From positions 1-21,164 of the forward strand of contig VERC01000005.1 in assembly GCA_018882825.1 (NCBI GenBank): 21,164 nt of DNA, read 5' to 3'. This document shows, piece by piece, positions 5,751 to 19,432 of the stretch; position 1 is the first letter of the stretch, and each line of letters opens with the position of its first letter. Origin of the DNA: Acidimicrobiia bacterium. Its GTDB lineage: Bacteria > Actinomycetota > Acidimicrobiia > Acidimicrobiales > Acidimicrobilacustridaceae. Under the pieces are notes generated by a model. The model saw nothing but the letters and a program-made list of their open reading frames with translations. It searched no databases and had not been told where the DNA came from. Made by a program: the position numbers and the translations under genes.

Positions 5751-5756
5751 GGCCGC

Positions 5757-5785
5757 ACCGTACGGAAACTTCTGGACTATGTCAA
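5757..5785 (-). promoter_or_regulatory. Near-consensus promoter of the marR-degT-like-SDR operon
   Basis: On the minus strand TTGACA (5785-5780) is followed after exactly 17 bp by TACGGT (5762-5757). The expected start site, six to seven bases further on, is the G of the GTG at 5750, so the message would be leaderless. This is the best -35/-10 pair in the window. Confidence 0.8.
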
Positions 5786-5790
5786 GGTTC
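5765..5790. promoter_or_regulatory. Probable MarR operator (imperfect inverted repeat)
   Basis: GAAACTT (5765-5771) and AAGGTTC (5784-5790) form an inverted repeat matching at 6 of 7 positions with a 12-bp centre. It covers the -35 box and the spacer of the marR promoter, the usual place for an autoregulatory MarR site. The assignment is inference from position. Confidence 0.45.
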
Positions 5791-5833
5791 TTCGGTTCGG
5801 AGCACTGACGGCCCAGCGAACCCGCGGCCCGAG

Positions 5834-5860
5834 TCGGGGTGGGGGATGACCCCACCCCGA
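5834..5860 (-). terminator. Strong hairpin terminator after the binding-protein gene
   Basis: TCGGGGTGGGG, loop GATGA, CCCCACCCCGA: a perfect 11-bp GC-rich stem. It lies 18 bp beyond the stop of the binding-protein gene (5879) and upstream of the marR promoter. No T-run follows, as is common for intrinsic terminators in high-GC actinobacteria. Confidence 0.75.
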
Positions 5861-5878: not shown

Positions 5879-7273
5879 TCAGCTCGGGCTGGAGATCCGG
5901 TTGGCGTTCAACTTGGCCCGGTCGACCACGGCACCGGACAGCTTCACCAGGTACTTCGGGTCACAGGCCTGGGTGCCGATCGTGGTCGGGAGGACCTGCT
6001 CGAACGTGGTGCCGTTCAACTTGAGGACCATGGCGCAGTCGCCCGGCTTGTTCTCACCCGGGTTCGTCGGGGACTGCAGCCCACCGGCGTCGTAGGAGGT
6101 CACCTTCGACAACTTCTCCAACACGCAGGTGCTGGTCAGGGTCGAGCCGCACTCCTTCGCCCCCATCGCCCACAGGAGGAACGCAGCAGTGGCCTGCGCA
6201 CCGAGGAGGCTGATCGCACCGCCGTTGGCCTTGACCAACTCCATGTATTTCGCCGTCGCCGCGTGCTTGTCGGCCTGCTCGAACGGGTAGTACGTCATGC
6301 GGGTGTAGACGTTGTTGGCGTTGCCGCTGGTGTTCCACTTGGCGAACTGGTCGGTGTAGGCGTTGGCCTCGGTGACCCAGATCGGGTTCCAGTTGAGCTG
6401 CTTCGCCGCGTCGAGCACGTTCTGGAAGATCGGTGCCGGTGAACCGGAGAAGTACACGACCTCGGCACCGCAGTCCTTGAGGCGCTGCAGGAACGGCAGG
6501 TAATTCGCCTCCCCGGCGATGTTGTACTGGAAGCGGCACGAGTCGAGGAACGTCCAACCGGCCTGCGTGTAGGCGATCTTCGCCTTGTCGGCCGAGTCGA
6601 TCGTCGCTGCGAAGTTCCCCTCGAAGATGCCGGTCTTCTTGACCGCCTCGGGGAACTTCTGGGCGATGAGGAAGGCATTGGCCGCGTCGTAGTAGTCGAC
6701 GGGATTCGGCGTCGGCTGGATCATCAACTGTGCATTGGCGAAGTTCGGACTCACCGTGTAGGTCGGCACTGCGGCCAACTTGCACCCGACGCGGGTCGGC
6801 TCACCGGCGCCGTCCAACGCGAAGCCCGAGCCGACGAGCATGAACACCTGCGTGCAGGCCTCGGTCATCTGGTTGGCGTGGTTGAGGATCGCCGCGTCGT
6901 AGTACTTGCCCACGACCTGACGTCCGTTGATGCCGCCCTGGTCGTTGCACCACTTGATCATGGCCTTGATGGCGTCGCTGATCTCCTTGTTGAGACCCGG
7001 TGACGCGCTGTAGCCGGCGTCGTCGCCGTAGCCGATGGTGACCGACGTGTCGGTCACACCCTGTTGGGTGCTGCCCTTGGCGTCACCCTTCCCGCACGGT
7101 GACGGCATGGTGCCGAAATCGGTCGATGACGACGCCTTGGTGCTCGACGTGCCCGACTCCGAGTCCGATCGCCCGCCACCGCAGGCGGCGGCCACCAGAG
7201 CGATGGTGACCATGGTCGCCACAGCCATCGTCCACGCCTTGGTGCGACGCGGGCCGGATCTGTCCGGATGCAT
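5879..7273 (-). CDS. ABC transporter substrate-binding lipoprotein, branched-chain amino acid type
   Basis: 464 residues. The N-terminus is a lipoprotein signal: basic MHPDRSGPRRTK, hydrophobic MAVATMVTIALVAAAC with the lipidated Cys at 31, then a Ser-rich linker. The rest follows the periplasmic-binding type 1 fold used for Leu/Ile/Val, amides and aromatic acids (TDTSVTIGYGDD, INGRQVVGKYYDA, AEVVYFSGSPAPIFQNVLDAAKQLNWNP). It would sit on the outer face of the membrane and deliver ligand to a LivHM/LivFG-type permease, but no such gene is in the window. The ATG at 7273 was preferred over the one at 7294 because GGAGGAGGGG lies just before it. It is a single-gene unit, bounded by the hairpin at 5834-5860 and by its own promoter. 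Confidence 0.9.
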   Translation of the reverse strand: MHPDRSGPRRTKAWTMAVATMVTIALVAAACGGGRSDSESGTSSTKASSSTDFGTMPSPCGKGDAKGSTQQGVTDTSVTIGYGDDAGYSASPGLNKEISDAIKAMIKWCNDQGGINGRQVVGKYYDAAILNHANQMTEACTQVFMLVGSGFALDGAGEPTRVGCKLAAVPTYTVSPNFANAQLMIQPTPNPVDYYDAANAFLIAQKFPEAVKKTGIFEGNFAATIDSADKAKIAYTQAGWTFLDSCRFQYNIAGEANYLPFLQRLKDCGAEVVYFSGSPAPIFQNVLDAAKQLNWNPIWVTEANAYTDQFAKWNTSGNANNVYTRMTYYPFEQADKHAATAKYMELVKANGGAISLLGAQATAAFLLWAMGAKECGSTLTSTCVLEKLSKVTSYDAGGLQSPTNPGENKPGDCAMVLKLNGTTFEQVLPTTIGTQACDPKYLVKLSGAVVDRAKLNANRISSPS

Positions 7274-7316: not shown

Positions 7317-7346
7317 AGTATATGACATCGTTATGTGAATTTCGAA
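7317..7346 (-). promoter_or_regulatory. Putative promoter of the binding-protein gene
   Basis: On the minus strand TTCGAA (7346-7341), an 18-bp spacer and TATACT (7322-7317). The -10 is good, the -35 poor, which fits a regulated promoter. The leader to the ATG at 7273 is about 37 nt and carries the Shine-Dalgarno sequence. Confidence 0.5.
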
Positions 7347-7373: not shown

Positions 7374-8540
7374 TCAGACGGGGGTCGGCAGGGGGTCGCC
7401 CATGCGGGCGAAGCAGTCGGCGATGTTCCCGCCCATGAACGAAGCCTTGAGGTCCGTCGGGGTCTCGACCATGAGCGCGTCGTAGTGCGCCGTCGGGGCC
7501 GGATTGCTCTCGTTGTGGGCGTAGTCCGAGGAGAACACGACGCACTCCGGGTACCGCTCCATCAGACGGAGCGGCGACTGGTGGGCCCGCGGCAGCGGCG
7601 TGATGCGCACGTTCCGTCGCACGAACTCGGCCGGCGTGAGGTCGAACCCGTAGGCGCCGAGGTACAGCGCCGTCTCGGGTTGGGCCGGCCCGCGCTGCTC
7701 CATGTGATCGACACAGCCCTCGAACCAGTGCACCCCGAATTCCGACAGGATCAGCGTCAGCTCGGGGTGGCGCTGGAACACCCCGCCGAACACCATGGCG
7801 TTGAGCATCAACTGGGCGGCCTGCGAGCCCTGACTGGCGCCCAACTGGCGCAGCACCGTGCCGTCATCGGTGTTGCACCACCCCGGGTCGAAGGCGTTGC
7901 AGCCGGCGCCGACGTGGACCTGCGCGGCCATGCCCAGATCGACGGCCGCGGCCCACACCCGGTCGAACCGCGGATCGTTCGGGGGAACGCCCTCGGCCGG
8001 AAGCGGCGAGACGAGGAACGTTCGGCTCCCTCGCTCGCGCATCCGGGTGAGTTCGGCGATCGCCCAGTCGATGTCACTCAGGTCGACGCTGGCCGCCGGC
8101 ATCAACCGGTGCGCGTTGCCGGCCACCTGGTCGGCGAGCCAGTCGTTGCAGGCGGCGATGGCCTCCCGGGCCAGATCGCGGTCGTCGAGGTACTTGGCGT
8201 AGCCGGCCCCTTCGAGGCACAGCACGTTGGTGATGTCGATGCCGACCTCGTCCATCCATGCCAGACGGGCGACGGGATCGGCGGGCGTGTGCATCGACGA
8301 GCCCTCGAAGCCGTAGCCGTCGGACTTCTCGATCCCGAGGATCGCCTTGATGCCCGGGGGGATGAGGGTGTCGTCCGATGGTCGGTCCGCCTCGGGCACG
8401 AAGCGCACCAGGTCACCGGCGATGGCCCGGACGGTGGCGACGGTGGTGGAGTATTCGGGCAGGCGGGCGCGCAGACCGGGATACTCGTCCAGCCACGCCC
8501 GACCCGGCTCGAAGTGGGTGTCGATGTCGACGATGCTCAT
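7374..8540 (-). CDS. Amidohydrolase-2 family metal-dependent hydrolase (ACMSD-like TIM barrel)
   Basis: 388 residues. D7-T-H9 (DIDTHFEP) is the N-terminal metal motif of the amidohydrolase-2 group. AQVHVGAG brings a barrel His (H209), LTLILSEFGVHWFEG is the typical strand-7 region, and VVFSSDYAHNES holds the metal Asp (D339). This group includes decarboxylases such as ACMSD and gamma-resorcylate decarboxylase and C-C or ester hydrolases acting on ring-derived acids. In actinobacteria such proteins often accompany LLM monooxygenases. The start has GAAGGAGA before the ATG. It is the last gene of the operon LLM, NTF2-like, amidohydrolase, 11 bp after the NTF2 gene. The reaction here is not known. 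Confidence 0.88.
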   Translation of the reverse strand: MSIVDIDTHFEPGRAWLDEYPGLRARLPEYSTTVATVRAIAGDLVRFVPEADRPSDDTLIPPGIKAILGIEKSDGYGFEGSSMHTPADPVARLAWMDEVGIDITNVLCLEGAGYAKYLDDRDLAREAIAACNDWLADQVAGNAHRLMPAASVDLSDIDWAIAELTRMRERGSRTFLVSPLPAEGVPPNDPRFDRVWAAAVDLGMAAQVHVGAGCNAFDPGWCNTDDGTVLRQLGASQGSQAAQLMLNAMVFGGVFQRHPELTLILSEFGVHWFEGCVDHMEQRGPAQPETALYLGAYGFDLTPAEFVRRNVRITPLPRAHQSPLRLMERYPECVVFSSDYAHNESNPAPTAHYDALMVETPTDLKASFMGGNIADCFARMGDPLPTPV

Positions 8541-8551
8541 GGCGGTCTCCT

Positions 8552-9037
8552 TCAGGGCCAGGGGCGCATCCGGTCGGCGACCAGAGCGGAGGAGCGGAAC
8601 TCGACCGATTCGGCCGAGTCGAGGACGGTCTCCTTGCGGAGGATCCGGTAGCCGTCGTCGGTCCGCCGGAGGGTCCAGCGCGAGATTCCCGTCGACATCA
8701 CGTCGGGGCGTCCGCTGGTGATCCGACTCACGACGAGATACCCGGCGAGGTCGATCTCGTCGCCCCGCTCGGCGACGACGTGGAGGTTGGTCTGGTTGTG
8801 GCGCAGTGGATAGGGACTGTGTCGACGGTGGTCGATCGTCCATGCCAGTGAGGCCTCACGGCCGTGCTGGTCGGAACGGATGAAGTCCTCGTGCGGGTGG
8901 GTGCCCGTGTCGGTCCGTGAACTCGAGTGCACCTCGTCGTCGAGCAGCGGAGCCAGTCGATCGAGATGGCCCTCGTCGTAGTCGAACCACCAACGATTGA
9001 CGAGCTCGATGGCGGCCCGGTGGTCGTGGGCGGTCAT
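8552..9037 (-). CDS. NTF2-fold (SnoaL-like) protein 1
   Basis: 161 residues. The start, DHRAAIELVNRWWFDYDEGHLDRLAPLLDDEVHSSSRTDTG, is the helix-rich entry to the cone-shaped alpha+beta NTF2/SnoaL fold, also used by ring-hydroxylating dioxygenase beta subunits and ketosteroid isomerases. It aligns without difficulty to the protein at 14241-14711: WWF.YD, R.DTG, AW..DHR..SP.PLRH, N.HV. The two are paralogues. No catalytic assignment is possible; small cyclase, isomerase or dehydratase roles are typical. The ATG at 9037 follows the LLM stop by 4 bp, so translation is probably coupled. Confidence 0.82.
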   Translation of the reverse strand: MTAHDHRAAIELVNRWWFDYDEGHLDRLAPLLDDEVHSSSRTDTGTHPHEDFIRSDQHGREASLAWTIDHRRHSPYPLRHNQTNLHVVAERGDEIDLAGYLVVSRITSGRPDVMSTGISRWTLRRTDDGYRILRKETVLDSAESVEFRSSALVADRMRPWP

Positions 9038-9041
9038 CGAC

Positions 9042-10262
9042 TCAGCCGGCCATGGCGGTCACGGGAAGACGCGTCGGCCACTCGACGTCGGGGAGTGGCT
9101 GGGAGAACCGTTCGTATCTGGGCTCGGCGGTGGCCCGGTAGCGATCGGTGCTGTGCGTGCGGTCGGGGTCGTGTTCCGGGATCACCCGGTCGCCGAAGAC
9201 CTCGAGCAGTTCGATCAACTCGTCGCGGTGCATGTCCTGTGGGAAGCCGAAGACGAGTTGGTCGCACCCGACGGACTTGTAGGACTCGAGCTGCTCGGAG
9301 ACCTCCTCCGGATTGCCGACGAGCATGTACCCGCCGGCGATCATCTGGTCGAGGAACTCGTCGGGATCTCCGGTGCCGATGACGTCGCGCATGGAGACGG
9401 GCGCCGCCGGCCACGTAATGGCGTCGGGTGACTTGGGCATGGTGTCGTGGTACAGGTTGACCATCGTCACGAGGTAACCGCTCATGCGTTCGAGCGCGAT
9501 GGCGCGTGCCCGGTCCCGGTCCTCGAGGCAGATGACGCCATTGGTCATCATCACGTTGTCGTTCTTGAACTGGCCGAGCGGTTCGGAGCAGTTCGCCACG
9601 GCTTCCTTGTAGGCGTCGATCCGACCCTTGAGGTTGTAGATCGGTTCGAAGTTGAAGGCGATGGCGCCGATTCCGAGCTCGCCGGCCCGGGCGAACGTCG
9701 GCGGATTGCCGCAGGCCACCCAGATCGGTGGATGGCCGGGACCGTAGGGCTTGGGCAGGACGTTGTGCGGAGTCGGCACCGTGAAGTGCTCCCCGTGGTG
9801 CACGTAGTCGACCTGCTCCCACATGCGCGGGATCTCGCGGACGACCTCCTCCCACTCGGGCTTGGTGGAGTCCTTGTCGAGGATGTTGAACGACGCCATC
9901 TCGTGACTGCCGGCGCCGCGACCCGTGCCCCACTCGAAGCGACGATCGGTCACGTGGTCGAGCATCGCGGCGCGCTCGGCGTAGCGCACCGGGTGCTCCT
10001 TGCGCGGGGAGAGGCTGTTGATGCCGGTGCCGAGGTGGATGTAGTCGGTCTGGGCCGCCACCCAACCCATGACCACCTCGGGTGCCGACATGTGGCTGTA
10101 TTCGACCAGGCAGTGGTGCTCGCCGAACCACGCGTACTTCCAGTTGTGCTTGTCGGCGATGACGGCGTACTCCGCCTCGCGCATCAACTGGCGGTGCTCC
10201 CAGCCGGTGTCATGGGCGCCGGGTCCCGGGATGTAGCCGTTCAGGAAGATGCCGAATTCCAC
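9042..10262 (-). CDS. LLM-class flavin-dependent monooxygenase (luciferase-like)
   Basis: 406 residues. The start is the GTG at 10262, with AAGGGGGAA at the right distance and the fold beginning at once (VEFGIFLNG, strand 1 of the luciferase barrel). WFGEHH (45-50), INSLSPRKEHPVRYAERAAMLDHVTDRRFEWGTGRG (81-116) and PPIWVACGNPPTFARAGELGIG are diagnostic of bacterial-luciferase-like FMNH2-dependent monooxygenases. An in-frame extension to 10754 is antisense-like overlap with the next gene and was rejected. Such enzymes hydroxylate or cleave hydrophobic or cyclic substrates using reduced flavin from a separate reductase, not seen here. It is the first gene of a three-gene operon whose promoter carries operator A. 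Confidence 0.92.
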   Translation of the reverse strand: MEFGIFLNGYIPGPGAHDTGWEHRQLMREAEYAVIADKHNWKYAWFGEHHCLVEYSHMSAPEVVMGWVAAQTDYIHLGTGINSLSPRKEHPVRYAERAAMLDHVTDRRFEWGTGRGAGSHEMASFNILDKDSTKPEWEEVVREIPRMWEQVDYVHHGEHFTVPTPHNVLPKPYGPGHPPIWVACGNPPTFARAGELGIGAIAFNFEPIYNLKGRIDAYKEAVANCSEPLGQFKNDNVMMTNGVICLEDRDRARAIALERMSGYLVTMVNLYHDTMPKSPDAITWPAAPVSMRDVIGTGDPDEFLDQMIAGGYMLVGNPEEVSEQLESYKSVGCDQLVFGFPQDMHRDELIELLEVFGDRVIPEHDPDRTHSTDRYRATAEPRYERFSQPLPDVEWPTRLPVTAMAG

Positions 10263-10290: not shown

Positions 10291-10307
10291 AATGTAACAG
10301 CGGTATC
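10291..10307. promoter_or_regulatory. Operator A (shared 17-bp motif) before the LLM operon
   Basis: On the minus strand GATACCGCTGTTACATT, one of five copies of the motif GATAACGnCGTTACATT in this window. It ends 28 bp before the GTG at 10262. Its TACATT end can serve as the -10 box, so a bound repressor would block polymerase. Assigned to the TetR proteins encoded nearby by inference. Confidence 0.7.
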
Positions 10308-10335
10308 TGACCGCCGCTCGGACGGACTCGGATGT

Positions 10336-11487
10336 TCAGACGAACGACGAGTCGGCCGTGAGTCCCCGCTCGGGGAACTCCCCGTAGACCATCGGCTGCC
10401 AGTTGCCGATGCCGTGACCCCCGGCCGAGTCGGTGACCCGGACGACGGTGTCGCGGATCTGGTGGACCCGTCGGGCCGTCTCGGGGTCTGAGCAGTCGGG
10501 GATCCACTCCCCGTCGACGGCGAGATCGCCCATCCACTCCCCGTGATGGTGTCCGTCGAACCCGAAGTACTTCCCCGTGCCCAGATGGAATCCGGTGTCG
10601 GAAACGACCTCGACGTCGAGGCGCCGGGTCGAACCGTCCTCGAGGGTGAGTCGGACCGAGCCGCCGAGCAGTCGGCGATTCCGCGTGTCGTAGCGCAGGT
10701 CGGGCTCGGCGTTGACGAACTTCTCGAAGCGACCGTCCGCATGTTCGATGCCACCCATCACCGTGCGCGACTCGAAACCGGGGCCGGACATGAAGCCGAA
10801 GTTCAGGAAGATGCCGTACCGCTCGCCGTTCGGTCGCTCCAGCAACATGGGCGACCACGCGAACTCGTAGGAACCGGGAATCGTGGGCCGGGGCTCCATG
10901 TCGACGGGTTCGACGCCGACCCCGTAGCGGACACCCCACGAGTGATCACGCGTCGCCACCCACGAGCCGTGGTCCATCTCGTGGCGCTCGCCGTCGATCT
11001 CCACCCAGCCCGAGCACAGGCCGATCTGGTGGAAACGGACGAGATCGGCCGACACCCGGTAGCCCGTGCGCTGGTGGGTGCGGTCCTCGGTGCGACAGGG
11101 GAGCACGCCCTCGAACAGCCAGTCGAAGGCGATCGGTTGGGTTTCGTTCGGCTCCAGGACGAACCGGATGGCGTGGAGCGGTTCGACGATCTCGTAGCGG
11201 ATCGGTCCGATGACGGTCAGTTCCGGTTCGGGATCGAGCCGTCGGCTGGCCCGCACGGTGATCTGCTCGACGCCCCGCGAGATGCCGGCGTAGGCGTCCA
11301 TGACGTTGCGGTTGGTGTACTTCCCCAACCCGAATCCCAACTGCAGCGAGCCGTCCTTGGCCGCGGCCATTGCGCACACCTTCTCCGTCCAGGCCGGATC
11401 GGACACGCCCGTGTTGGCGAACGTCTCGGTCACCTGATGGCAGAACTGCTCGTCGGCGGCGATGAGCGGGCCGATCACGTGTTCCAT
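10336..11487 (-). CDS. CrtC/AttH-like beta-barrel protein of unknown function
   Basis: 383 residues. No catalytic motif is certain. The body is rich in beta strands with many Trp and His, including GSWVATRDHSWGVRYG (174-189) and DGHHHGEWMGD near the C-terminus. These recall the two-lipocalin-domain fold of hydroxyneurosporene synthase (CrtC) and AttH-like proteins, which act on hydrophobic lipids. There is no signal peptide. The ATG at 11487 has GAAGGGAG before it and overlaps the 3' end of the APH-like gene by 13 bp. It is the third gene of the operon SDR, APH-like, this protein. A role in binding or hydrating the same hydrophobic substrate is inference; otherwise it remains a conserved unknown. 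Confidence 0.6.
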   Translation of the reverse strand: MEHVIGPLIAADEQFCHQVTETFANTGVSDPAWTEKVCAMAAAKDGSLQLGFGLGKYTNRNVMDAYAGISRGVEQITVRASRRLDPEPELTVIGPIRYEIVEPLHAIRFVLEPNETQPIAFDWLFEGVLPCRTEDRTHQRTGYRVSADLVRFHQIGLCSGWVEIDGERHEMDHGSWVATRDHSWGVRYGVGVEPVDMEPRPTIPGSYEFAWSPMLLERPNGERYGIFLNFGFMSGPGFESRTVMGGIEHADGRFEKFVNAEPDLRYDTRNRRLLGGSVRLTLEDGSTRRLDVEVVSDTGFHLGTGKYFGFDGHHHGEWMGDLAVDGEWIPDCSDPETARRVHQIRDTVVRVTDSAGGHGIGNWQPMVYGEFPERGLTADSSFV

Positions 11488-12608
11488 GGCGGACTCCCTT
11501 CGGTCGGCTGCTCGAGGCCGTCGAGGAGCCGGGTCAGTGTGGGTAGCGGGTACAGCAGTGCCTCGGGGTCGTCGGGAGCAGTCGACTCCCCGAAGGCGAT
11601 CGAGCGGTCGGTGGTGCGGATGGCGATGACGCTCTGATGGAGCGCCGTAAGGGTCACGAACCAGTCGAAGGCGCGCAGTGTGGTGCCCGCGGCCGCCTCG
11701 TAGCGACCGACGACGTCGTCGCGACGCAGGAGCGTCGGTACCCCGGGGAGCCCCCGAGCCTCGGCGCTGCGTTGGAACGACTCGGCGAAGTACACGAGCC
11801 ACGCCACATCCAGCTCACGGGGTCCGACCGTCGTCATCTCCCAGTCGACGACACCGACGGCACGCCCGTCGCGCCAGATGATGTTCCCGATGCGCGCGTC
11901 GCCCCACAGGAGGACGTCGTCGTCGACGGCGGGCATCGAGCGCGCCACGATCTCGAACCCCCGCTCGATTGTGGGGAACGACCGACCCTTCGCCGCCCAG
12001 TCGAAGTGGCGGCGCACCGCCCCCACGTGACGTTCGAGCGCGCTGGTCTCCGACCCCTCGCTCCCGGCGCGCGCGGCGGCGACCAGACCCTCGGTCGGTG
12101 GCGCCGAGTGGATGGCGACGAGGACGTCGACGGCGTCGTGGGTCATCGTCGCCAGTCGGTCCGCCGGCAGTTCGGTCACCCAACTGCCCCAGGTGTAGGG
12201 CATGACGTCGGGCGGAACGTCGCCGTCGATGCGTTCCATCACGAAGAACGGGACCCCGATCGCTTCCCCGGTCGAGTCGGACCACAGGATCTCGGGGACC
12301 GGTGCGGTGGAGTGGTGGCGCACGACCTGCATCGCTTCGACCTGTCGGGCGAAGTCGTACGACTCGAAGATGGGAAAGGCGTCGGGGGTCGGCGGGAGAC
12401 GCAGCACGACTCGTCGCGAGTGCGGCGCATTCGACGTCGACCAGTGGAGATCGAGCAGGAGCGAGTCACTGGAGAGACCGGCGCCGCTCGGACCCCCGTG
12501 GGACACGAGATGCGGTGGGTCCTCGGAACCGACCTCGCCCTGGAACCACACGCCGAACGCCTCGAGGACCTCCTGCGGGTCGCGGGTCGAGGTGCGCGGT
12601 CGGAGCAT
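11475..12608 (-). CDS. Aminoglycoside-phosphotransferase-fold kinase-like protein
   Basis: 377 residues with a complete APH/choline-kinase fold. RRVVLRLPP (65-73) is the ATP-lysine strand with Arg at the Lys position. PFFVMERIDG (120-129) is the hinge. LLWGDARIGNIIW (233-245) is the catalytic loop with D237 and N242, Trp replacing the usual His of HGD. VVDWEMTTVGP (253-263) is the metal loop. In actinobacterial lipid-degradation clusters relatives are usually annotated as phosphotransferase/ACAD10-like, phosphorylating hydroxyacyl compounds rather than antibiotics. It starts 3 bp after the stop of the SDR, so the two are coupled. Not evidence of drug resistance. Confidence 0.85.
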   Translation of the reverse strand: MLRPRTSTRDPQEVLEAFGVWFQGEVGSEDPPHLVSHGGPSGAGLSSDSLLLDLHWSTSNAPHSRRVVLRLPPTPDAFPIFESYDFARQVEAMQVVRHHSTAPVPEILWSDSTGEAIGVPFFVMERIDGDVPPDVMPYTWGSWVTELPADRLATMTHDAVDVLVAIHSAPPTEGLVAAARAGSEGSETSALERHVGAVRRHFDWAAKGRSFPTIERGFEIVARSMPAVDDDVLLWGDARIGNIIWRDGRAVGVVDWEMTTVGPRELDVAWLVYFAESFQRSAEARGLPGVPTLLRRDDVVGRYEAAAGTTLRAFDWFVTLTALHQSVIAIRTTDRSIAFGESTAPDDPEALLYPLPTLTRLLDGLEQPTEGSPPWNT

Positions 12609-12611
12609 GGG

Positions 12612-13385
12612 TTACTTCTGCATGCCGCCGGAGACGGAGATCTCGTCGCCCGTGACGTACGAGGACGCGTCACTGGCCAGGTACAGCACCGGTCCGACGA
12701 TCTCGCGGGCGTCGGCCACCCGCTTCATGAGGGTGCCGTTGGCGATCATGTCGGTGAAGCCCGGACGCACGCGTTCGGCCCCCTGCACCATCTCGGTGTC
12801 GAAGGGGCCCGGACACAGGGCGTTCACCCGGATGTTCCACGGCGCCCACTCCTGGGCCATCGACTTGGTGAGATTGATGAGCCCTGCCTTCGAGGATCCG
12901 TAGGCGCACACGTTGGAGCCGCCCGAGTACGCGGCCATGGTGACGATGTTGACGATGGAGCCGCCACCGTGGTCACGCATGACGGGTGCCACCTGTTGGG
13001 CCATGCGGAGCGGACCTTCGAGATTGACGGTGAACATCTTGCGCCAGTACTCGAGCGTCATCTCCGACACCGTGGTGGGGGCCGGGTTGATGCCGGCATT
13101 GTTGACGAGCACGTCGATGGTGCCGAAGCGCGCCACCACTGCGTCGACGAACGCCGGTATGCCGTCCCAGTCGCCGACGTGGCAGGCGAGACCGAGCACC
13201 TCGACGCCCGTCGACTCGGCGACCTCGGTGGCGACGGCGTCACACAGTTCCTGCTTGCGCGAACTCACCACGACCCTGGCGCCCGCTTCGGCGAGACCCT
13301 GCACCATCGCCCGCCCGATGCCCTTGGTCGAGCCGGTCACGACTGCGACCTTGCCGGTGAGGTCGAGCAGTTCCTTCGCGGTCAT
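12612..13385 (-). CDS. Classical SDR oxidoreductase
   Basis: 257 residues, the full length of a classical SDR. TGSTKGIG (17-24) binds the dinucleotide and NNAG (95-98) follows. YGSSK gives the catalytic Y162 and K166. At the position 13 residues before the Tyr, where most SDRs have the catalytic Ser, there is T149 (NIVTMAAYSGG). CPGPFDTEM is the substrate loop and YVTGDEISVSGGMQ the C-terminus, as in FabG-like 3-hydroxyacyl or hydroxysteroid dehydrogenases. It is the first gene of an operon with the APH-like and CrtC-like genes. Operator B lies 30 bp before the ATG. Likely oxidises or reduces a hydroxyl group on the cluster's substrate. Confidence 0.92.
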   Translation of the reverse strand: MTAKELLDLTGKVAVVTGSTKGIGRAMVQGLAEAGARVVVSSRKQELCDAVATEVAESTGVEVLGLACHVGDWDGIPAFVDAVVARFGTIDVLVNNAGINPAPTTVSEMTLEYWRKMFTVNLEGPLRMAQQVAPVMRDHGGGSIVNIVTMAAYSGGSNVCAYGSSKAGLINLTKSMAQEWAPWNIRVNALCPGPFDTEMVQGAERVRPGFTDMIANGTLMKRVADAREIVGPVLYLASDASSYVTGDEISVSGGMQK

Positions 13386-13415
13386 GGGCGTGCTCCGATT
13401 CGATCGTCCCGGTGG

Positions 13416-13432
13416 GATAACGACGTTACATC
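13416..13432. promoter_or_regulatory. Operator B (shared 17-bp motif) before the SDR operon
   Basis: GATAACGACGTTACATC, with the palindromic core TAACGACGTTA. It ends 30 bp before the SDR ATG at 13385. It overlaps the stop codon of tetR1 (13431-13433), so the regulator gene ends on the site it presumably controls. The frameshifted second tetR has the same arrangement. Confidence 0.72.
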
Positions 13433-14120
13433 ACGACCGGCGGGGACGGCGCTCGACGCCGACCTCGCGAGGTGTGAGCAGGAGCGACTGGCCGAAGCGG
13501 GCGGCCAACTCTCCCCACGACTTCTTCGAGTGCGGCTCGATCCCGAAGGCCTCGAGCACGCCCAGTCCCACCTCGACCGCCCAGGTGTGGAGGACGGCGT
13601 CGTGGATGTCGACCGACGGATCGATCCCCAACTGGTCGCGGTTCGCCTCGTAGCCGGCGATCCATGCCTCGAGATGCACGAGTTGCTCGTTCCGCACCTG
13701 CTCGCGAGTCTCCGGATCGGTGTGGGAGGCGGCCGCGCCCTCGACGATCAGTGCCCGCATCTGGCGCCGCTTCGGGTACTCGGCTGCCAGCATGCGCAGC
13801 GTGTCGACATGGACGGGCCCGTCGCCCGTGGCGAACTGCCGCGACTCGAGATCCGTCGTCGTCCGCAGTCCGATGGCCGCGGCGAGGAGATCGGCCTTGT
13901 TCCGGAAGTGGCCGTAGATGGCGCCCGTCGTCATCGAGGCCTGACGGGCGACGTCGCGGATCGAGGTCTGGGCGTAGCCGCGGTTGGCGAACAGTTCGGC
14001 GGCGAGACCGATCAGGGCGCGACGGGTGGCCTGCGCCTTGTCGCTCGGACGCTCGGCACGGGCTCGGTTGGCCGACTCGGTGGTCGGCCCGGTGGTCGAC
14101 GTCGACTTCTTCGGTGGCAC
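13431..14120 (-). CDS. TetR-family transcriptional repressor (TetR1)
   Basis: 229 residues from a GTG with GAGGAG before it. The choice matches the GTG start of the paralogue at 19432 and gives gap-free alignment. Residues 29-75 are the TetR helix-turn-helix (AQATRRALIGLAAELFANRGYAQTSIRDVARQASMTTGAIYGHFRNKADLLAAA). The rest is the helical ligand and dimer domain. The N-terminal 20 residues are basic and Ser/Thr-rich. Operator C lies upstream, in the divergent gap with the NTF2 gene, and operator B overlaps the stop, so the protein probably represses itself and the cluster. Ligand unknown, but acyl-CoA or ring-degradation intermediates are typical for such TetRs. Confidence 0.9.
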   Translation of the reverse strand: MPPKKSTSTTGPTTESANRARAERPSDKAQATRRALIGLAAELFANRGYAQTSIRDVARQASMTTGAIYGHFRNKADLLAAAIGLRTTTDLESRQFATGDGPVHVDTLRMLAAEYPKRRQMRALIVEGAAASHTDPETREQVRNEQLVHLEAWIAGYEANRDQLGIDPSVDIHDAVLHTWAVEVGLGVLEAFGIEPHSKKSWGELAARFGQSLLLTPREVGVERRPRRS

Positions 14121-14194
14121 GGGCACTCCTCGTGGTGCGATCGTTCCCATCTTCGTGCACCCGGTCGCCGTCGTGCAGGACCTCGCTCGGCGAG

Positions 14195-14211
14195 GATAAC
14201 GCTGGTACATT
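14195..14211. promoter_or_regulatory. Operator C between tetR1 and NTF2-like gene 2
   Basis: GATAACGCTGGTACATT, fully intergenic in the divergent tetR1/NTF2 region. It ends 29 bp before the ATG at 14241 and 74 bp before the tetR1 GTG. TACATT faces the plus-strand gene and TTATCC faces tetR1, so one site can hold the -10 of both promoters. Confidence 0.72.
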
Positions 14212-14240
14212 CCCGCTCCGGTCGATCCGAAGGGGGAACG

Positions 14241-14711
14241 ATGATCTCGAGCGCCGACGTGCAGGGACTGCTCAACCACTGGTGGTTCGCCTACGACAAC
14301 GCCCTGTTCGACGAATGGAACGACATGTGGACCAGCGACGCGCACTTCTCCTGCCGCAGCGATACGGGGAAGACGGCGTTCGAGGAGTTCGTCACCGCCG
14401 ATGCGCAGGGCCTCGATGCGGTCATTGCGTGGCAGACCGATCATCGGCTGCGCAGTCCGCATCCTCTGCGCCATGGCGGCGAGAACATCCACGTCACCAG
14501 CGCCACCGTCGCGGGAGCGGACTTCCGTTCCTACATCCGGGTCAGTCAGATCGTGGGTGGCCAGGTGTCGAACCTTTCGACCGGCATCGTCCACGGTCGG
14601 GTGGCGATCGAGGACGGCCGGTTGAAGATCGCCGATCTGAACGTGGTGCTCGACACCGAGGACTCGACCGTGCTGGCGACGAAGGGGATCGCACCCGGAA
14701 CCCCGTCGTGA
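14241..14711 (+). CDS. NTF2-fold (SnoaL-like) protein 2
   Basis: 156 residues, a paralogue of the protein at 8552-9037: shared WWFAYD near residue 13, CRSDTG, AWQTDHRLRSPHPLRH and NIHV. The fold is the NTF2/SnoaL cone, with no assignable active site. The start ATG is preceded by GAAGGGGGAACG, a good ribosome-binding site, and by operator C. It is the only operator-controlled gene read to the right from tetR1. Its TGA overlaps a GTG (GTGA) that opens a 43-codon frame. A catalytic isomerase or dehydratase role, or a ligand-binding one, is possible. Confidence 0.82.
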   Translation: MISSADVQGLLNHWWFAYDNALFDEWNDMWTSDAHFSCRSDTGKTAFEEFVTADAQGLDAVIAWQTDHRLRSPHPLRHGGENIHVTSATVAGADFRSYIRVSQIVGGQVSNLSTGIVHGRVAIEDGRLKIADLNVVLDTEDSTVLATKGIAPGTPS

Positions 14712-14839
14712 GCGAGCAGTCGGACGCCGACAAGGCGCTCGCGCTCGAGAACATGGAGGCGTTCCGGACCGCTGATCAGCCCGAGTTCCGTCCGTCGTCG
14801 GCGCGCTGGTACCAGTCGGTGGTCGGTGCGATCGTGTAG
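14708..14839 (+). CDS. Short reading frame coupled to NTF2-like gene 2, possibly a gene fragment
   Basis: 43 codons opening with a GTG in a GTGA overlap with the NTF2 stop. The first part, VSEQSDADKALALENMEAFRTADQ, reads like a natural soluble N-terminus. The second half lies antisense to the end of the convergent oxygenase-like gene (from 14776) and looks like a shadow. It could be the stump of a gene cut by a rearrangement near 14776, or chance. I recognise no family. Confidence 0.25.
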   Translation: MSEQSDADKALALENMEAFRTADQPEFRPSSARWYQSVVGAIV

Positions 14840-15849
14840 GTCGACAGCAGCGTGCGGATGAACGACTGGTCGTGGAACGGATCGTTCTCGTCCGGGGTCT
14901 CACAGGCGACTCCCCGACGGGCCAGATCCTCGAGGAACGTCTCGATGATGCGATCCCGGGTGATGTCATCGGAGTGGTCCATGACCTTCTTGGCCTCGTC
15001 GCGGTCCATGTAGACCTCGGCGTTCCAGTGCACGAGGAAGCGGATGTTGGTCGGCTCGTAGGTGCGTACGACCTCTCCGTCGGTGGTGATGGCCCAGTCG
15101 TCCGTCGCTGGCCGGTAGCCGAACATCGAGCGGTGGGCCAGTCCGGTGATGTCGCGCTCGTCGGGTCGGCCCACCGGGTCACCGCGATGGAACATCAACT
15201 CGTTCTGGACGACGACACCCTTGTTCCACATCGGGTGCTCGATCCGAGCAGGTTGTCCGTGGGGACCGTCCGGCCAGTAGGTGAAGGTCCCCTCCTCGCC
15301 CAACCAGAACCAGGTGATCACCTGGGCCATCTTGAGGACGTGGTCGGTGAACAGCCCGGACTTGCCCATCAGGTTCTGGATCCACACGGGGGTGTCGGCG
15401 ATGGTCGCGCCCCGGAAGGACACGGCGTCGAGATGGGCGTTCAACCCGCTGTGGGCCGGCCCTCCGATGTTGAACAGCATCAACGTCGGCTTGGCGTAGT
15501 CGGCCCCCCAGTAGCGCTTGGCCCTCTCGATGAAGTCCGGGTTGTAGAAGCAGTCGTGGATCTCGGGATACCAGCAGCACGAGTTCTCGGCGAGGAACCC
15601 GCGGAAGTTGGCGGTGGCGATGTCGTCGAGCGTGAGGCCGTGGTTCTCCGGCACGATGCCGCTCGACGTGGCGATGAGCTCCTCGACGGTGGAGAAGTGG
15701 TGGGCCGTGATGGTGGGCCACGGACCGTGATCCTTGACCACACCGAGGAGACGGGAGTGCTGATCGGCCGTGTAGGGCGCGTCGAACACCACCGGAGGAG
15801 CGGCGGGTCGGAGCACGGCATTCAGGTCGAGCGGCTCTGCGGTGGTCAT
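14776..15849 (-). CDS. Putative non-heme Fe(II)/2-oxoglutarate-type oxygenase
   Basis: 357 residues, not confidently placed in a family. NAHLDAVSF has H139-x-D141 and MFHRGDPVG has H221, which together make the HxD...H facial triad spacing (about 80 residues) of cupin-fold Fe(II) oxygenases. Arg residues follow (R222, R228) that could hold a co-substrate carboxylate, somewhat as in phytanoyl-CoA dioxygenase relatives. Many Trp and aromatic residues line the middle (TWFWLGEEGTFTYWPDGPHG). ATG 15849 has GAGGAGG before it. Operator D lies 31 bp upstream, shared with the divergent VOC gene. An oxygenase in the same pathway is the inference; a structural cupin-like protein is the alternative. Confidence 0.55.
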   Translation of the reverse strand: MTTAEPLDLNAVLRPAAPPVVFDAPYTADQHSRLLGVVKDHGPWPTITAHHFSTVEELIATSSGIVPENHGLTLDDIATANFRGFLAENSCCWYPEIHDCFYNPDFIERAKRYWGADYAKPTLMLFNIGGPAHSGLNAHLDAVSFRGATIADTPVWIQNLMGKSGLFTDHVLKMAQVITWFWLGEEGTFTYWPDGPHGQPARIEHPMWNKGVVVQNELMFHRGDPVGRPDERDITGLAHRSMFGYRPATDDWAITTDGEVVRTYEPTNIRFLVHWNAEVYMDRDEAKKVMDHSDDITRDRIIETFLEDLARRGVACETPDENDPFHDQSFIRTLLSTYTIAPTTDWYQRADDGRNSG

Positions 15850-15880
15850 CGGGCCTCCTCGGGCGGACGGACGACGTCGA

Positions 15881-15897
15881 AATGTAACGGTGTTCTA
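15881..15897. promoter_or_regulatory. Operator D in the oxygenase-like/VOC divergent gap
   Basis: On the minus strand TAGAACACCGTTACATT, the most diverged of the five copies in its left half. It ends 31 bp before the ATG at 15849 and 10 bp before the ATG at 15908. It also touches the VOC -10 box, so it can act on both genes. Confidence 0.62.
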
Positions 15898-15901
15898 CCA
15901 T
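15896..15901 (+). promoter_or_regulatory. -10 box for a leaderless VOC transcript
   Basis: TACCAT, then six bases, then the ATG at 15908. No Shine-Dalgarno sequence stands before that ATG. The box overlaps operator D by two bases. Confidence 0.5.
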
Positions 15902-15907
15902 GGGGCC

Positions 15908-16297
15908 ATGTCGACACGCATCGGGAACGTGGCGTTGTGGGTCTCCGACCTCGACCGCTCGGAGCGATTCTGGACGGAGGGGCTCGGTCTCGACGTGCAG
16001 GCCCGGATCGACACGCCCGACGTGCGGGAGGTGCTGGTGGGCTCGCCCGAGGGGGGCTCCCAGGTGCTGCTGTCGAAGGCGACGATGGCGACCGAGGAGA
16101 ACCGCCCCCGGCCCGACGGCATCTGGAAGGTCTTCCTCGACGTCGACGACGTGCACGCGGCGTTCGACCGGGCCCTGGCCGCCGGCGCCACACCGGACCA
16201 CGAGCCGTTCGTCCTCGAGTTGCCGACGCTGACGATCACCCTCGCCTTCGTGCGCGACCCCGACGGCTACCTGATCGAGATGGGGCGCCGGGTCTGA
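15908..16297 (+). CDS. Glyoxalase/bleomycin-resistance (VOC) superfamily protein
   Basis: 129 residues with two beta-alpha-beta-beta-beta modules: NVALWVSDLDRSERFWTEGLGLDV (7-30) and WKVFLDVDDVHAAFDRALAAGA (from about 73), ending in VRDPDGYLIEMG. VOC enzymes usually carry four metal ligands. By motif alignment the first His is N7, the first Glu is Gln in GSQVLL, the second His is Trp in GIWKVF, and only the last Glu (LIEMG) is kept. It may therefore be a metal-free or binding member. The promoter seems leaderless and is touched by operator D, which links it to the oxygenase-like gene. Substrate unknown. Confidence 0.85.
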   Translation: MSTRIGNVALWVSDLDRSERFWTEGLGLDVQARIDTPDVREVLVGSPEGGSQVLLSKATMATEENRPRPDGIWKVFLDVDDVHAAFDRALAAGATPDHEPFVLELPTLTITLAFVRDPDGYLIEMGRRV

Positions 16298-16368
16298 CGC
16301 CGGGCGCCCGTCGCTCGGACGCCGACTACCGTTCGGGCGTCGACTGCAGGGGGAGCGGGAGGAGCGCG

Positions 16369-16953
16369 ATGCACGATTTCGAACCTTCGAGGACCTGGAC
16401 GGACTACGGGCCCTACCTGGCTGCGGCCGCCACTGCTCGTCAGCGGCGCATGTTGACGCTGGTCCAGGCTCACGCCCGGGCCGAGGTCGAACGCGACCTC
16501 GACGGGCTCATGGCCACCTTGGTGGCCGAACCGTCCTATCGCTTCTGGATCATGGGCAAGGACCTCGGCCCGAAGGGGTACGACACGGTGCGCGGGTACT
16601 ACGCCGACTACGTGGCCGGTGGCGGTGCGGTGCTGGAGTCGACCATCGAACGACTGGTCGTCGACGACTCGGTCGTCGTGCAGGAGGGGTGGATCCGCAA
16701 CCTCCTCCCGGCCGCCGTGGCCCGGCGACGCGGCTACCCGGTGCCCGACGATGTCGAGCATGTGCTGGTCCGGTTCCGCAGTCTCGTGCTGTGGCCCTTC
16801 GACGACGGCGACGACGAGTCGTGTCTGTTGATCGGTGAGGACTCCTACGCGCCCCTCGACCTCGAGGCGTGGGAGCCGGTGGCCGAGGCCGATCTGCCGC
16901 AGTACTACCTCGACTACCTGGCCGAGATCGGTCTGCACGCCGGGGCGAGGTGA
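16369..16953 (+). CDS. NTF2-fold (SnoaL-like) protein 3
   Basis: 194 residues, more distant from the other two NTF2-like proteins. QRRMLTLVQAHARAEVERDLDGLMATLVAEPSYRFWIMGKDLGPKGYDTVRGYYADYV (27-84) is the helical entry and first strand pair of a SnoaL-like domain. ERLVVDDSVVVQEGWIRNLLP starts the sheet. The C-terminal 40 residues are acidic and rich in Tyr. No signal peptide. ATG 16369 was chosen for GGGAGGAGC just before it; a long in-frame extension is antisense to the oxygenase-like gene. The stop overlaps the exporter's GTG (GTGA), so the two are coupled and may handle the same small molecule. Confidence 0.75.
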   Translation: MHDFEPSRTWTDYGPYLAAAATARQRRMLTLVQAHARAEVERDLDGLMATLVAEPSYRFWIMGKDLGPKGYDTVRGYYADYVAGGGAVLESTIERLVVDDSVVVQEGWIRNLLPAAVARRRGYPVPDDVEHVLVRFRSLVLWPFDDGDDESCLLIGEDSYAPLDLEAWEPVAEADLPQYYLDYLAEIGLHAGAR

Positions 16954-18539
16954 ACTCCTCGGTCCCCACCGAGGCCCGAGTTCCGACCGAAGGTTCGGTG
17001 CCGGCCCGCGCCGGGTTGGTGCTGGTCACACTCATCACCGTCGCCACCGTCGCCAACCTCAACCTCTCGGTGGCCAACATCGCCCTGCCCGACATCGGTC
17101 GACACTTCGACGCGTCACAGGTCGAACTCAACGCCGTCGCCGTCGGCTTCTCCCTCGGTCTGGCCGCCACCGTGCTGTGGTTGGGCGCACTCGGTGATCG
17201 CTACGGCCGTCGATCGATGCTGCTCGGCGGGCTGGTGCTGTCGGTGCCGGCCAGCCTCGTCGCCGGCTTCGCGCCCGATGTCCTCGTGCTGGCCATCGCC
17301 CGGATCGTCGGCGGTGTCGCAGCCGGAATGGCCTTCCCCACCACCCTGGCGTTGATCACCGCGCTGTGGTCGGGTCCGGCGCGGACCCGACCCATCGCCC
17401 TGTGGTCGGGGATCGGCGGGGCCACGATGGCGTTCGGGCCGCTCGTCGCCGGTGGTCTGCTGCTCCACTTCTGGTGGGGATCGGTCTTCCTCGTCACCAT
17501 CCCGCTCGCCGTCGTCGCCTTCGTCGCCTCGCTCCTGCTGCTACCGGCGCACGTCAACGAGTCCTCCGGTTCGGTCGACAACGTCGGTGGTGTGCTGTCG
17601 GTGGTGATGGTCGGCGCGGCGGTGATCTCCATCACCATCGCGCCGGAGCCCGGCCTGCTCACGGCATCGGCCGTGATCGCCGTGATCGCCGTCGTGGCCG
17701 TCGTCCTGTTCGTGCGGCGGCAACGTCGCGTGTCCGAGCCCCTCTACGACCTCCGGGTGGCGGCGCGTCGCACGTTCTGGGTGGCCGCCGTGGCGGGGAT
17801 GTTGGTGTTCGGCGCGTTGGTCGGGGCGATGTTCATCGGACAGCAGTACATGCAGAACGTGCTCGGGTACTCGACGTGGAGCGCCGGGTTGAGCGTGCTC
17901 CCGGCGGCGGTGTTCATGGTCGTGGGGGCCCCCGTCTCGGCCCGGTTGATCGAGTGGAGGGGCTCACGAGACGCACTGTTGGTCGGGTTCGTCATCGCCG
18001 GCCTCGGGTTCGTCGTGATGATCCTGCTGTGGCGGGACACCGCCTCGGCCGTGGTGGTCGGTCTCGGGTACTCGTTGCTGGGACTCGGCGTGGGCATCGC
18101 CGGGCCCCCGGCGTCGCGGTCACTCACCGAATCGGTTCCGGTCGACCGGGCGGGGATGGCCTCGGCCACCGCCGACCTGCAGCGCGACCTCGGCGGCGCG
18201 ATCCTGCAGTCGATCCTCGGCGCCATCCTCACCGCCGGGTACGCCGTGGCGTTCCGGGCCCAGATCTCCTCGGCACAGACCACGATCTCCGACGCCGTGA
18301 CCACCCAGTTGACGAAGTCGTACTCGGGCGCGGCGACCATCGCTGAGCAGTACCCGCAGTACGCCGACCAGATCATCGCCGCGGCGCGCCAGTCGTTCGT
18401 CGACGGCCAGCACCTCGCCTATGGCGTGGGCATCGTGGCCATGGTGATCGGTATCGCCGTCGTGTGGTTCGGCTTCCCGGCCAAGGAGCGGGAGAACGAG
18501 ATGGTGTCGGACTACGACCGAGCCGACGCGCCCGCCTGA
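16950..18539 (+). CDS. MFS drug:proton antiporter, DHA2 (14-helix, EmrB/QacA) type
   Basis: 529 residues. LNLSVANIALPDIG (37-50) is helix 1 with the DHA motif, LGALGDRYGRRS (78-89) is motif A, and SGIGGATMAFGPLVAGG (153-169) is the antiporter motif C. The hydrophobic segment pattern continues to about residue 515, and a large loop (SSAQTTISDAVTTQLTKSYSGAATIAEQYPQYADQ) precedes the last helix, as in EmrB/QacA exporters. It would expel small hydrophobic compounds by proton exchange. The GTG start overlaps the stop of the NTF2-like gene. Context suggests export of a substrate or toxic intermediate of the cluster. It ends 24 bp from the convergent P450 relic. Confidence 0.92.
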   Translation: MNSSVPTEARVPTEGSVPARAGLVLVTLITVATVANLNLSVANIALPDIGRHFDASQVELNAVAVGFSLGLAATVLWLGALGDRYGRRSMLLGGLVLSVPASLVAGFAPDVLVLAIARIVGGVAAGMAFPTTLALITALWSGPARTRPIALWSGIGGATMAFGPLVAGGLLLHFWWGSVFLVTIPLAVVAFVASLLLLPAHVNESSGSVDNVGGVLSVVMVGAAVISITIAPEPGLLTASAVIAVIAVVAVVLFVRRQRRVSEPLYDLRVAARRTFWVAAVAGMLVFGALVGAMFIGQQYMQNVLGYSTWSAGLSVLPAAVFMVVGAPVSARLIEWRGSRDALLVGFVIAGLGFVVMILLWRDTASAVVVGLGYSLLGLGVGIAGPPASRSLTESVPVDRAGMASATADLQRDLGGAILQSILGAILTAGYAVAFRAQISSAQTTISDAVTTQLTKSYSGAATIAEQYPQYADQIIAAARQSFVDGQHLAYGVGIVAMVIGIAVVWFGFPAKERENEMVSDYDRADAPA

Positions 18540-18562
18540 TCCGGGCCCGACTCGGTTCCGAC

Positions 18563-18688
18563 TCAGCTCAGCGGAGCAGGGTTCTTGCGGGCGCCCGGCG
18601 TGTAGGTCACCGGCATGTGCTTGACGCCGCCGATGAAGTTCGACCGCAGGATGTCGACGTTGCCGGCCAACTGCATGTCCGGGGCCAT
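18563..18688 (-). pseudogene. Relic: C-terminal tail of a cytochrome P450 behind an intact operator and start
   Basis: 41 codons. APDMQLAGNVDILRSNFIGG followed by VKHMPVTYTPG matches the end of class I P450s. It aligns to the tail of the intact P450 at 3146: MPD..L......S..F.G.....PV. The heme loop, ExxR and I-helix are absent, so it cannot be a P450. Yet it keeps an ATG, a GGGAG ribosome site and operator E 31 bp upstream, the spacing seen before intact cluster genes. An internal deletion that joined a start codon to the last 40 codons is the simplest reading. It may still make a microprotein. Confidence 0.65.
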
Positions 18689-18717
18689 CGAGTGCTCCCG
18701 GTGTCGTCGTGTCGTAC

Positions 18718-18736
18718 GAGATAACGACGTTATCTC
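18718..18736. promoter_or_regulatory. Operator E, a perfect 19-bp palindrome
   Basis: GAGATAACGACGTTATCTC has two perfect 9-bp arms around a central base. It is the most symmetric copy of the motif shared with operators A-D. It lies 29-31 bp before the P450-relic ATG and overlaps the end of the second tetR (stop at 18735 in the restored frame), exactly as operator B overlaps the end of tetR1. Confidence 0.78.
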
Positions 18737-19432
18737 ACGACCGCGACGCACGACGCTTCGACCGCGCGACCCCGACCTCCGACGGTGCCAGGAGGAGGGA
18801 GTGACCGAAGCGGGCCGCGAGGTCGCCCCACGACCTCTTGGAGCGCGGCTCGATACCGAACGCCTCGAGCACGCCGAGACCGACCTCGACCGCCCACGTG
18901 TGCAGGACGGCGTCGTGGATGTCGATGGATGGATCTTTTCGAGTTCCTCGCGGTTGGCCTCGTAGCCGGCGATCCACGAGCCGAGGTGCGCGAGCTGTTC
19001 ATCGCGGACATGGTCGCGGGTCTCGGGATCGGTGTGGGATGCCGCCGCAGCCTCGACGATGAGGGCACGGAATTGGCGCCGCTTCTGGTAGTCGGTCGCG
19101 ATCTTCCGGAGCGACTGGATGTGGACCGGTCCTGGACCCCTCGCGAAGACCTGTCCTTCGAGATCGGTCGCCGTTCGCAGTTCGATCGCCGCCGCGAGGA
19201 GGTCGGCCTTGTTGCGGAAGTGGCCGTAGATCGCCCCGGTGGTCATCGACGCCTGACGGGCGACGTCACGGATGGACGTCTGTGCGTACCCGCGGTTGGC
19301 GAAGAGTTCGGCGGCGAGCCCGATGAGGGCGCGGCGGGTCGCTTGTGCCTTGTCGGTGGGGCGCTCGGCGCGGGCCGACGTCTTCGACGCCTTCTTGTCC
19401 CGCTGTGTGCTGGTGGTCTTCGTCGTGGCCAC
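18735..19432 (-). pseudogene. TetR-family repressor broken by a one-base frameshift (TetR2)
   Basis: Starts at GTG 19432 with AGGGAGG before it. It aligns without gaps to TetR1; in residues 23-83, which cover the helix-turn-helix, only one residue differs (Ser/Thr). At codon 165-166 (GAAAAG, T-run 18936-18939 on the plus strand) one base is missing. Restoring it gives 232 residues ending at 18735, with the domain DPSIDIHDAVLHTWAVEVGLGVLEAFGIEP matching TetR1. As written, the frame departs and reads through operator E into the P450 relic, stopping at 18563 (289 residues). A sequencing error in the A-run cannot be excluded. Without its C-terminal half the protein would probably not dimerise properly. 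Confidence 0.85.

Follow-up and report, generated by a model that had tools for sequence, protein, structure and literature searches.

The stretch of DNA considered here (the window, 21,164 nucleotides; contig C99 of an Acidimicrobiia genome of 2.25 Mb in 299 contigs that is 80% complete) carries a cluster of enzyme genes together with the gene of a predicted TetR-type regulator, TetR1, and that of a paralogue, TetR2 (Table 1). Copies of a two-fold symmetric site, designated A to F, lie before the neighbouring genes, and this site is conserved together with the TetR subfamily of TetR1. The operons to which the genes are assigned are predicted from gene spacing.

Table 1. Palindromic sites and genes of the window. 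Scores are those of the matrix built from the sites of relatives.
Feature	Position	Strand	Remarks	Score
Site A	10291..10309, centre 10300	-	38 bp before GTG 10262 of LLM	22.6
Site B	13414..13432, centre 13423	-	38 bp before ATG 13385 of SDR2; overlaps TetR1 stop codon	18.5
Site C	14193..14211, centre 14202	+	39 bp before ATG 14241 of NTF2b; in divergent gap to TetR1	22.0
Site D	15881..15899, centre 15890	-	41 bp before ATG 15849 of dioxygenase-like gene; also 18 bp before ATG 15908 of divergent VOC gene	18.6
Site E	18718..18736, centre 18727	-	39 bp before ATG 18688 of P450 relic (short frame); overlaps TetR2 stop codon	24.2
Site F	7319..7337, centre 7328	-	55 bp before ATG 7273 of ABC substrate-binding protein	18.1
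TetR1	13431..14120	-	predicted regulator; 229 aa, GTG start	
TetR2	18735..19432	-	TetR1 paralogue, 76% over query residues 4-170; frame broken near 18930	
ABC substrate-binding protein	5879..7273	-	Peripla_BP_6; first gene of operon F	
MarR-type regulator	5202..5855	-	operon F; start codon uncertain	
DegT-fold pyridoxal phosphate enzyme	3967..5205	-	operon F	
SDR1	3143..3970	-	last gene of operon F	
Luciferase-like monooxygenase (LLM)	9042..10262	-	Bac_luciferase, 4.5e-44; first gene of operon A	
SnoaL/NTF2-like protein a (NTF2a)	8552..9037	-	operon A	
Amidohydro_2 protein	7374..8540	-	operon A	
SDR2	12612..13385	-	operon B, first gene; identity of 87-89% in eight relative loci	
APH-like protein	11475..12608	-	operon B	
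383-aa protein	10336..11487	-	operon B; no Pfam match at E ≤ 0.01; CrtC-like according to the first-pass annotation only	
SnoaL/NTF2-like protein b (NTF2b)	14241..14711	+	predicted target of site C	
2-oxoglutarate (2OG)-Fe(II) dioxygenase-like protein	14776..15849	-	predicted target of site D	
VOC protein	15908..16297	+	divergent from site D; membership uncertain	
P450 relic	18563..18688	-	about the last 40 residues, CYP125/142-like; rest not found here	

The palindromic sites

Five copies of a 17-mer, GATAACGNCGTTACATT, had been named in the first-pass annotation, and a scan of the window with this pattern, in which up to three mismatches were allowed, finds all of them, namely at 10291 (-), 13416 (+), 14195 (+), 15881 (-) and 18720 (+, also reading on -), with 2, 1, 2, 3 and 3 mismatches, respectively. 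The scan returns six rows, i.e. the five sites with one of them on both strands, as compared to a mean of 0.05 and a maximum of 1 in shuffled sequence. The spacing of 28-31 bases from site to start codon holds as first described, but seven positions (2, 4, 6, 10, 12, 13 and 16) are identical in all five copies and not eight, a number that the accompanying list of seven had itself contradicted. These five copies are real. A sixth, site F (TATATGACATCGTTATGTG on the plus strand), had been overlooked, and sites B and E had been given on the plus strand, yet the genes that they precede lie on the minus strand. The reading frame behind site E is no more than the C-terminal tail of a P450, the rest of the gene not being found here.

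In all six sites AAC-N3-GTT is present, with no more than one of its six defined bases substituted. Site E is a perfect palindrome, GAGATAACG-A-CGTTATCTC, over 19 bp. Because each of the sites B and E overlaps a TetR stop codon, and both contain GATAACGACGTTAnnTCACGACC, they may derive from one duplication and hence not be fully independent.

Occurrence in the genome

In the genome as a whole, the same 17-mer scan gives nine rows that correspond to eight places, five of them in the window and three elsewhere, and there are no matches to the reversed control. For five of the eight to fall within 21 kb, P is ~4e-9 (binomial on length). The genome scan proposed along with the five sites thus finds them clustered at these genes rather than scattered at random. 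With a relaxed 15-mer, six of 11 places fall into the window (control: one per strand). A large genome-wide regulon was considered and rejected, as four of the outside places (on contigs C43, C117, C136 and C224) fall in coding frames. The only outside place that is intergenic and before a gene lies on contig C152, where it scores 15.2 (null maximum of 13.1 in 50 simulations) and is weaker than the sites of the window. It is a probable seventh copy, ahead of an acyl-CoA dehydrogenase operon.

Conservation in relatives

TetR1 homologues (E ≤ 1e-40) are present in 15 of 99 genomes, the source genome included, and the same palindrome adjoins many of them. For a footprint, we used 22 relative loci, made up of 18 kept from a first set of 23 and four longer ones, the 23 having been drawn from GTDB genomes that include Microthrixaceae, Ilumatobacteraceae and Acidimicrobiales. 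Left out were L043, which comes from the same assembly as L044 and holds half a TetR, and L047-L050, with matches of 54-73 residues from other groups; L013-L026 are shorter loci that, by their coordinates, partly represent the same places as the other relative loci.

A symmetric matrix of five window sites, with site B entered one base off, reaches the level of 14 bits in 20 of the 22 loci, whereas 1000 mirror-symmetric permutations of its columns reach a mean of 2.3 loci and at best 19, none of them 20. Locus L038 stays below this cut with 9.9 bits, yet CACATAACAACGCTATCAT precedes its dioxygenase gene. The 26 sites collected from the relatives have the consensus AAKATAAC-RNY-GTTATMTT, which is an odd palindrome whose central base is free.

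The relatives-only matrix built from these 26 sites, for which site B was set at the right place (as in the held-out test below), gives the six window sites the six highest scores (24.2 to 18.1; Table 1), with the next match at 6.9 and a null maximum of 14.1 in 100 simulated windows. As the 26 sites had first been picked with the window matrix, this test is independent for site F only. The loci of genomes G204 and G173, which entered no matrix, were held out as a test for the relatives, and their top matches score 24.4 and 25.1, with null maxima of 12.1 and 11.0 (50 simulations each); the neighbouring genes are an amidohydrolase/TetR pair and a dioxygenase-like gene, the latter downstream of the site.

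In the relatives the genes behind the sites are orthologous to those of the window despite a changed gene order, and the palindrome persists before orthologous genes across genera and families. Genes related to that of the ABC substrate-binding protein, behind site F, have a site ahead of them both in L034, L067 and L068, where identity is 47-58%, and in L032 and L033, where it is 26%.

The motif and the regulator across genomes

In the family, we compared 37 genomes using a 19-mer with up to two mismatches, a cut of E ≤ 1e-45 for the TetR1 homologue and the reversed pattern as control. Motif and TetR1 homologue each occur in 14 of 37 genomes, 13 of which are shared, and the reversed controls occur in none; the motif is hence found in 13 of 14 regulator-positive as compared to 1 of 23 regulator-negative genomes (Fisher 5e-8). 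In G034, the regulator is present and the site carries three mismatches. The first-pass proposal of a TetR regulon is borne out insofar as the comparison with relatives ties the palindrome to this TetR subfamily.

At the level of the order (397 genomes, with matrix scoring on up to seven candidates per genome), the motif occurs in 7 of 13 regulator-positive and 36 of 384 regulator-negative genomes (Fisher 1e-4). Six regulator-positive genomes have no two-mismatch match; in each of the five whose own loci were scored with the matrix (G034, G041, G048, G173 and G204, which is all but G220), a site is found. Similar palindromes, AAGTTAAC..GTTATCTT, occur in G250 and G045 in stretches without a homologue of the window. 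Related palindromes are found at position 5248 of L116 (AAGTTAACGGCGTTATCTT) and 7458 of L117 (AAGTTAACGTCGTTATCCT), with no homologues of the window around them; their source genomes show no TetR1 match, and they are perhaps operators of another regulator.

TetR1, TetR2 and known systems

TetR1 matches the Pfam domain TetR_N (PF00440) with 8.8e-16 and 57.9 bits (cut-off 24). That the two TetR proteins have nearly the same helix-turn-helix, as had been noticed from the sequence, is correct in that they are identical over 50 residues around it, but the reading frame of TetR2 is broken. TetR1 has homologues of 74-90% on metagenome contigs (P0001-P0022). The metagenome proteins P0002 and P0006 look, by eye, closer to TetR2 than to TetR1.

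The segment of the recognition helix, (T/S)(T/S)GAIYGHF, is kept in 20 of 22 homologues. In L070 it reads TTGAIYAHF, yet the site is of the usual type. In L069 (from G048), VSVGAIYLHFKNK stands in place of the MTTGAIYGHFRNK of TetR1, and the site, AGTAGAAC-GCT-GTTCTACT, is altered in its outer bases. This single case of covariation agrees in direction with what recognition of the site by TetR1 would produce.

In the known systems, TetR repressors bind as a dimer to a palindrome and bar RNA polymerase until a ligand frees them (PMC1995591, PMC9210681). KstR, which represses cholesterol catabolism in mycobacteria, has its palindrome across the -10 region, both ahead of its own gene and ahead of many operons for lipid catabolism, and the core operator is TnnAACnnGTTnnA with a spacer of 2 (PMC1995591). 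KstR is hence alike in being a TetR repressor acting on a palindrome, but its core differs from the AAC-N3-GTT with outer ATAAC and a spacer of 3 seen here, in line with the earlier remark that the site resembles the KstR site without matching it. While 74-83 genes are predicted for KstR, mainly one compact cluster is concerned here, and TetR1 was rejected as a KstR orthologue (20.5 bits on the KstR model, cut-off 280).

BioQ is a biotin regulator. BioQ of Corynebacterium glutamicum binds as a TetR dimer to the 13-bp palindrome TGAAC-N3-GTTAC (PMC9210681), which shares the AAC-N3-GTT core and its spacing with the sites described here but differs in its outer TGAAC, as opposed to ATAAC. Biotin genes are absent among the 20 window proteins scanned, and a BioQ model is absent among the 18 NCBIfam families listed for TetR1, from a library that was not checked for holding such a model. 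The best NCBIfam match of TetR1 is to the ScbR family autoregulator-binding factors (NF041196; 1e-17), but its 64.9 bits are far under the curated cut-off of 150. PMC8700777 presents EdcR of Caenibius as an estrogen-dependent TetR repressor with a proposed palindrome over the -10 box; it is likewise a repressor of a catabolic cluster acting on a palindrome, which there is TnnCnnTACnAnTnGTAnnGnnA, in another phylum. The comparison covers these systems; 30 mycobacterial TetR motifs are tabulated, as logos, in PMC4482099.

Proposed regulation and alternatives

From our point of view, it is highly probable that the palindromes are operators of the TetR1 subfamily, located 38-41 bp before most start codons, through which at least five operons are repressed. 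By analogy with other members of the TetR family, a TetR1 dimer would bind the odd palindrome of the consensus, which would overlap or touch the -10 region, so that the bound dimer would keep RNA polymerase off. The operons blocked in this way would be those of the substrate-binding protein, MarR, DegT and SDR1 (operon F), of LLM, NTF2a and amidohydrolase (operon A), and of SDR2, the APH-like and the CrtC-like protein (operon B), as well as NTF2b and the 2OG-dioxygenase-like gene. The acyl-CoA dehydrogenase operon on C152 would probably be blocked too, and so, through the divergent gap that holds site C, would the gene of TetR1 itself. A ligand, presumably the substrate of the pathway or a CoA-linked intermediate, would release TetR1 and thereby induce the operons. 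The genes had been proposed to form one inducible pathway, which they may do; sites are found before five operons, but not clearly before the VOC-NTF2-MFS genes.

Several observations weigh against this reading. The relative loci were chosen via TetR1, their sites were first found with the window matrix, and several of them represent closely related genomes. The contrast with the permuted matrices depends on the cut, because permutations reach 20 loci in 5 of 1000 cases at 12 bits and in 51 of 1000 cases at 10 bits. In L040, no site is found in 13.7 kb (best match 8.2 bits), and its TetR1 homologue (51%) has the usual recognition helix; the matches in L036 and L037 are irregular, with TAACGTTA lacking the three-base spacer. 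A TAnnnT hexamer stands out in the gene-proximal half of A, C and D, but not in that of B and E. In the family, G033 (90% complete, 440 contigs) has three copies of the motif and two dioxygenase-like genes, and no TetR1 homologue is detected in it at E ≤ 1e-12. The dioxygenase-like gene occurs in 15 of 37 family genomes, i.e. the 14 regulator-positive ones and G033, and the motif therefore tracks the gene set as closely as it tracks the regulator. In the order, the reversed pattern is found in 34 of 397 genomes, about the rate of the motif in regulator-negative ones, and since the two rates are this close the motif is no safe marker outside the family.

One could imagine that another regulator of the cluster, for instance the MarR protein, binds the palindrome and that TetR1 is a mere neighbour. 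The MarR gene sits in the operon of site F, MarR proteins bind short palindromes too, and G033 has the motif with no detectable TetR1 homologue. However, a MarR homologue is present in only 3 of 33 loci (L033, L041 and L045), a set in which many loci span no more than 3-4 kb, as compared to the palindrome in 20 of 22, and the only TetR1 homologue with a clearly altered recognition helix has an altered palindrome; we regard binding by another regulator as very improbable. An even less probable explanation is that the motif represents a shared promoter element, for instance of an alternative sigma factor, whose fixed spacing would simply reflect the promoter. The constant distance of 38-41 bp that separates the centre from the start codon in five cases would fit such an element, as would the -10-like TACATT in the gene-proximal half of A, C and D. 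A promoter is difficult to reconcile, however, with a two-fold symmetry that is perfect over 19 bp in site E and strong in single sites of relatives (L032, L070), with the distance to candidate starts in the relatives, which varies from roughly 30 to 125 bp, and with the mere 0-3 matches per genome in the 37 family genomes.

Least probable of all, and very much so, is that the sites are functionless copies left by local duplication, B and E having been carried along with the 3' ends of the TetR genes and the others having arisen by chance. The shared stop-codon overlap of B and E and the decay of TetR2 and of the P450 after site E agree with such a history, but the flanks of A, C, D and F are different ones, and the persistence of the palindrome before orthologous genes of other genera and families is not what functionless copies would show. 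We therefore retain repression by the TetR1 subfamily as the preferred reading.

A local TetR catabolic regulon of this kind is a new and well supported example with an ordinary TetR mechanism, and as local TetR regulons are common it will come as a modest surprise to the specialist. Neither this operator nor this regulon was found described for Acidimicrobiia among the matches listed in the open-access literature, a scope that leaves most subscription journals aside. With the mechanism being an ordinary one, the interest lies in the pathway that the operator marks. It is conceivable, although we would advance it only tentatively, that one TetR subfamily controls an undescribed catabolic pathway across several families of the Acidimicrobiia, with an operator that has been kept despite the reordering of the genes. 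Such a pathway would comprise an unassigned 2OG-dioxygenase family, a luciferase-like monooxygenase, SnoaL-like proteins, a highly conserved SDR, a DegT-fold 3-dehydrase-like enzyme, acyl-CoA steps and an importer of its own, and the operator could be used to gather its genes from uncultured genomes. For a conserved gene set of uncultured Acidimicrobiia, a testable pair of regulator and operator would thus be at hand, with the operator indicating which genes belong together, the dioxygenase-like family without a Pfam domain included.

The genes behind the sites

The dioxygenase-like protein has no Pfam match at E ≤ 0.001 and no sequence match in the PDB at E ≤ 10, and its 2OG-oxygenase fold was recognised from a structure model, which yields the fold only. 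Its family comprises 1090 homologues at E ≤ 0.001; among the 120 listed, none has a Pfam domain, and the named ones are mostly hypothetical proteins. At a locus of G033 (L110, on contig C203), two dioxygenase-like paralogues (63% and 56%) diverge from a shared intergenic region in which the motif occurs twice.

Behind site E, eight homologues of 31-53 aa resembled a family of small proteins, in a search in which only short proteins could be candidates. A conserved microprotein was nevertheless dismissed, as the longest homologue (P0241) and the frame of the window both align with the C-termini of P450 proteins. The P450 relic and the broken TetR2 may represent either true decay or an assembly fault of the fragmented genome.

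In the DegT-fold protein, the His of SFALSHIIT aligns with the first His of SFYPAHHIT, the active-site His of CDP-hexulose 3-dehydrase E1 (3bcx). DegT-family aminotransferases have a Lys where the dehydrase has this His, and judged by this residue the protein is probably a dehydrase. The genes were compared across 33 relative loci, a range that does not cover the SDR at 19502-20403. The set of MarR, DegT and SDR1 genes recurs in L033 (DegT 83%, SDR1 80%) and in L045.

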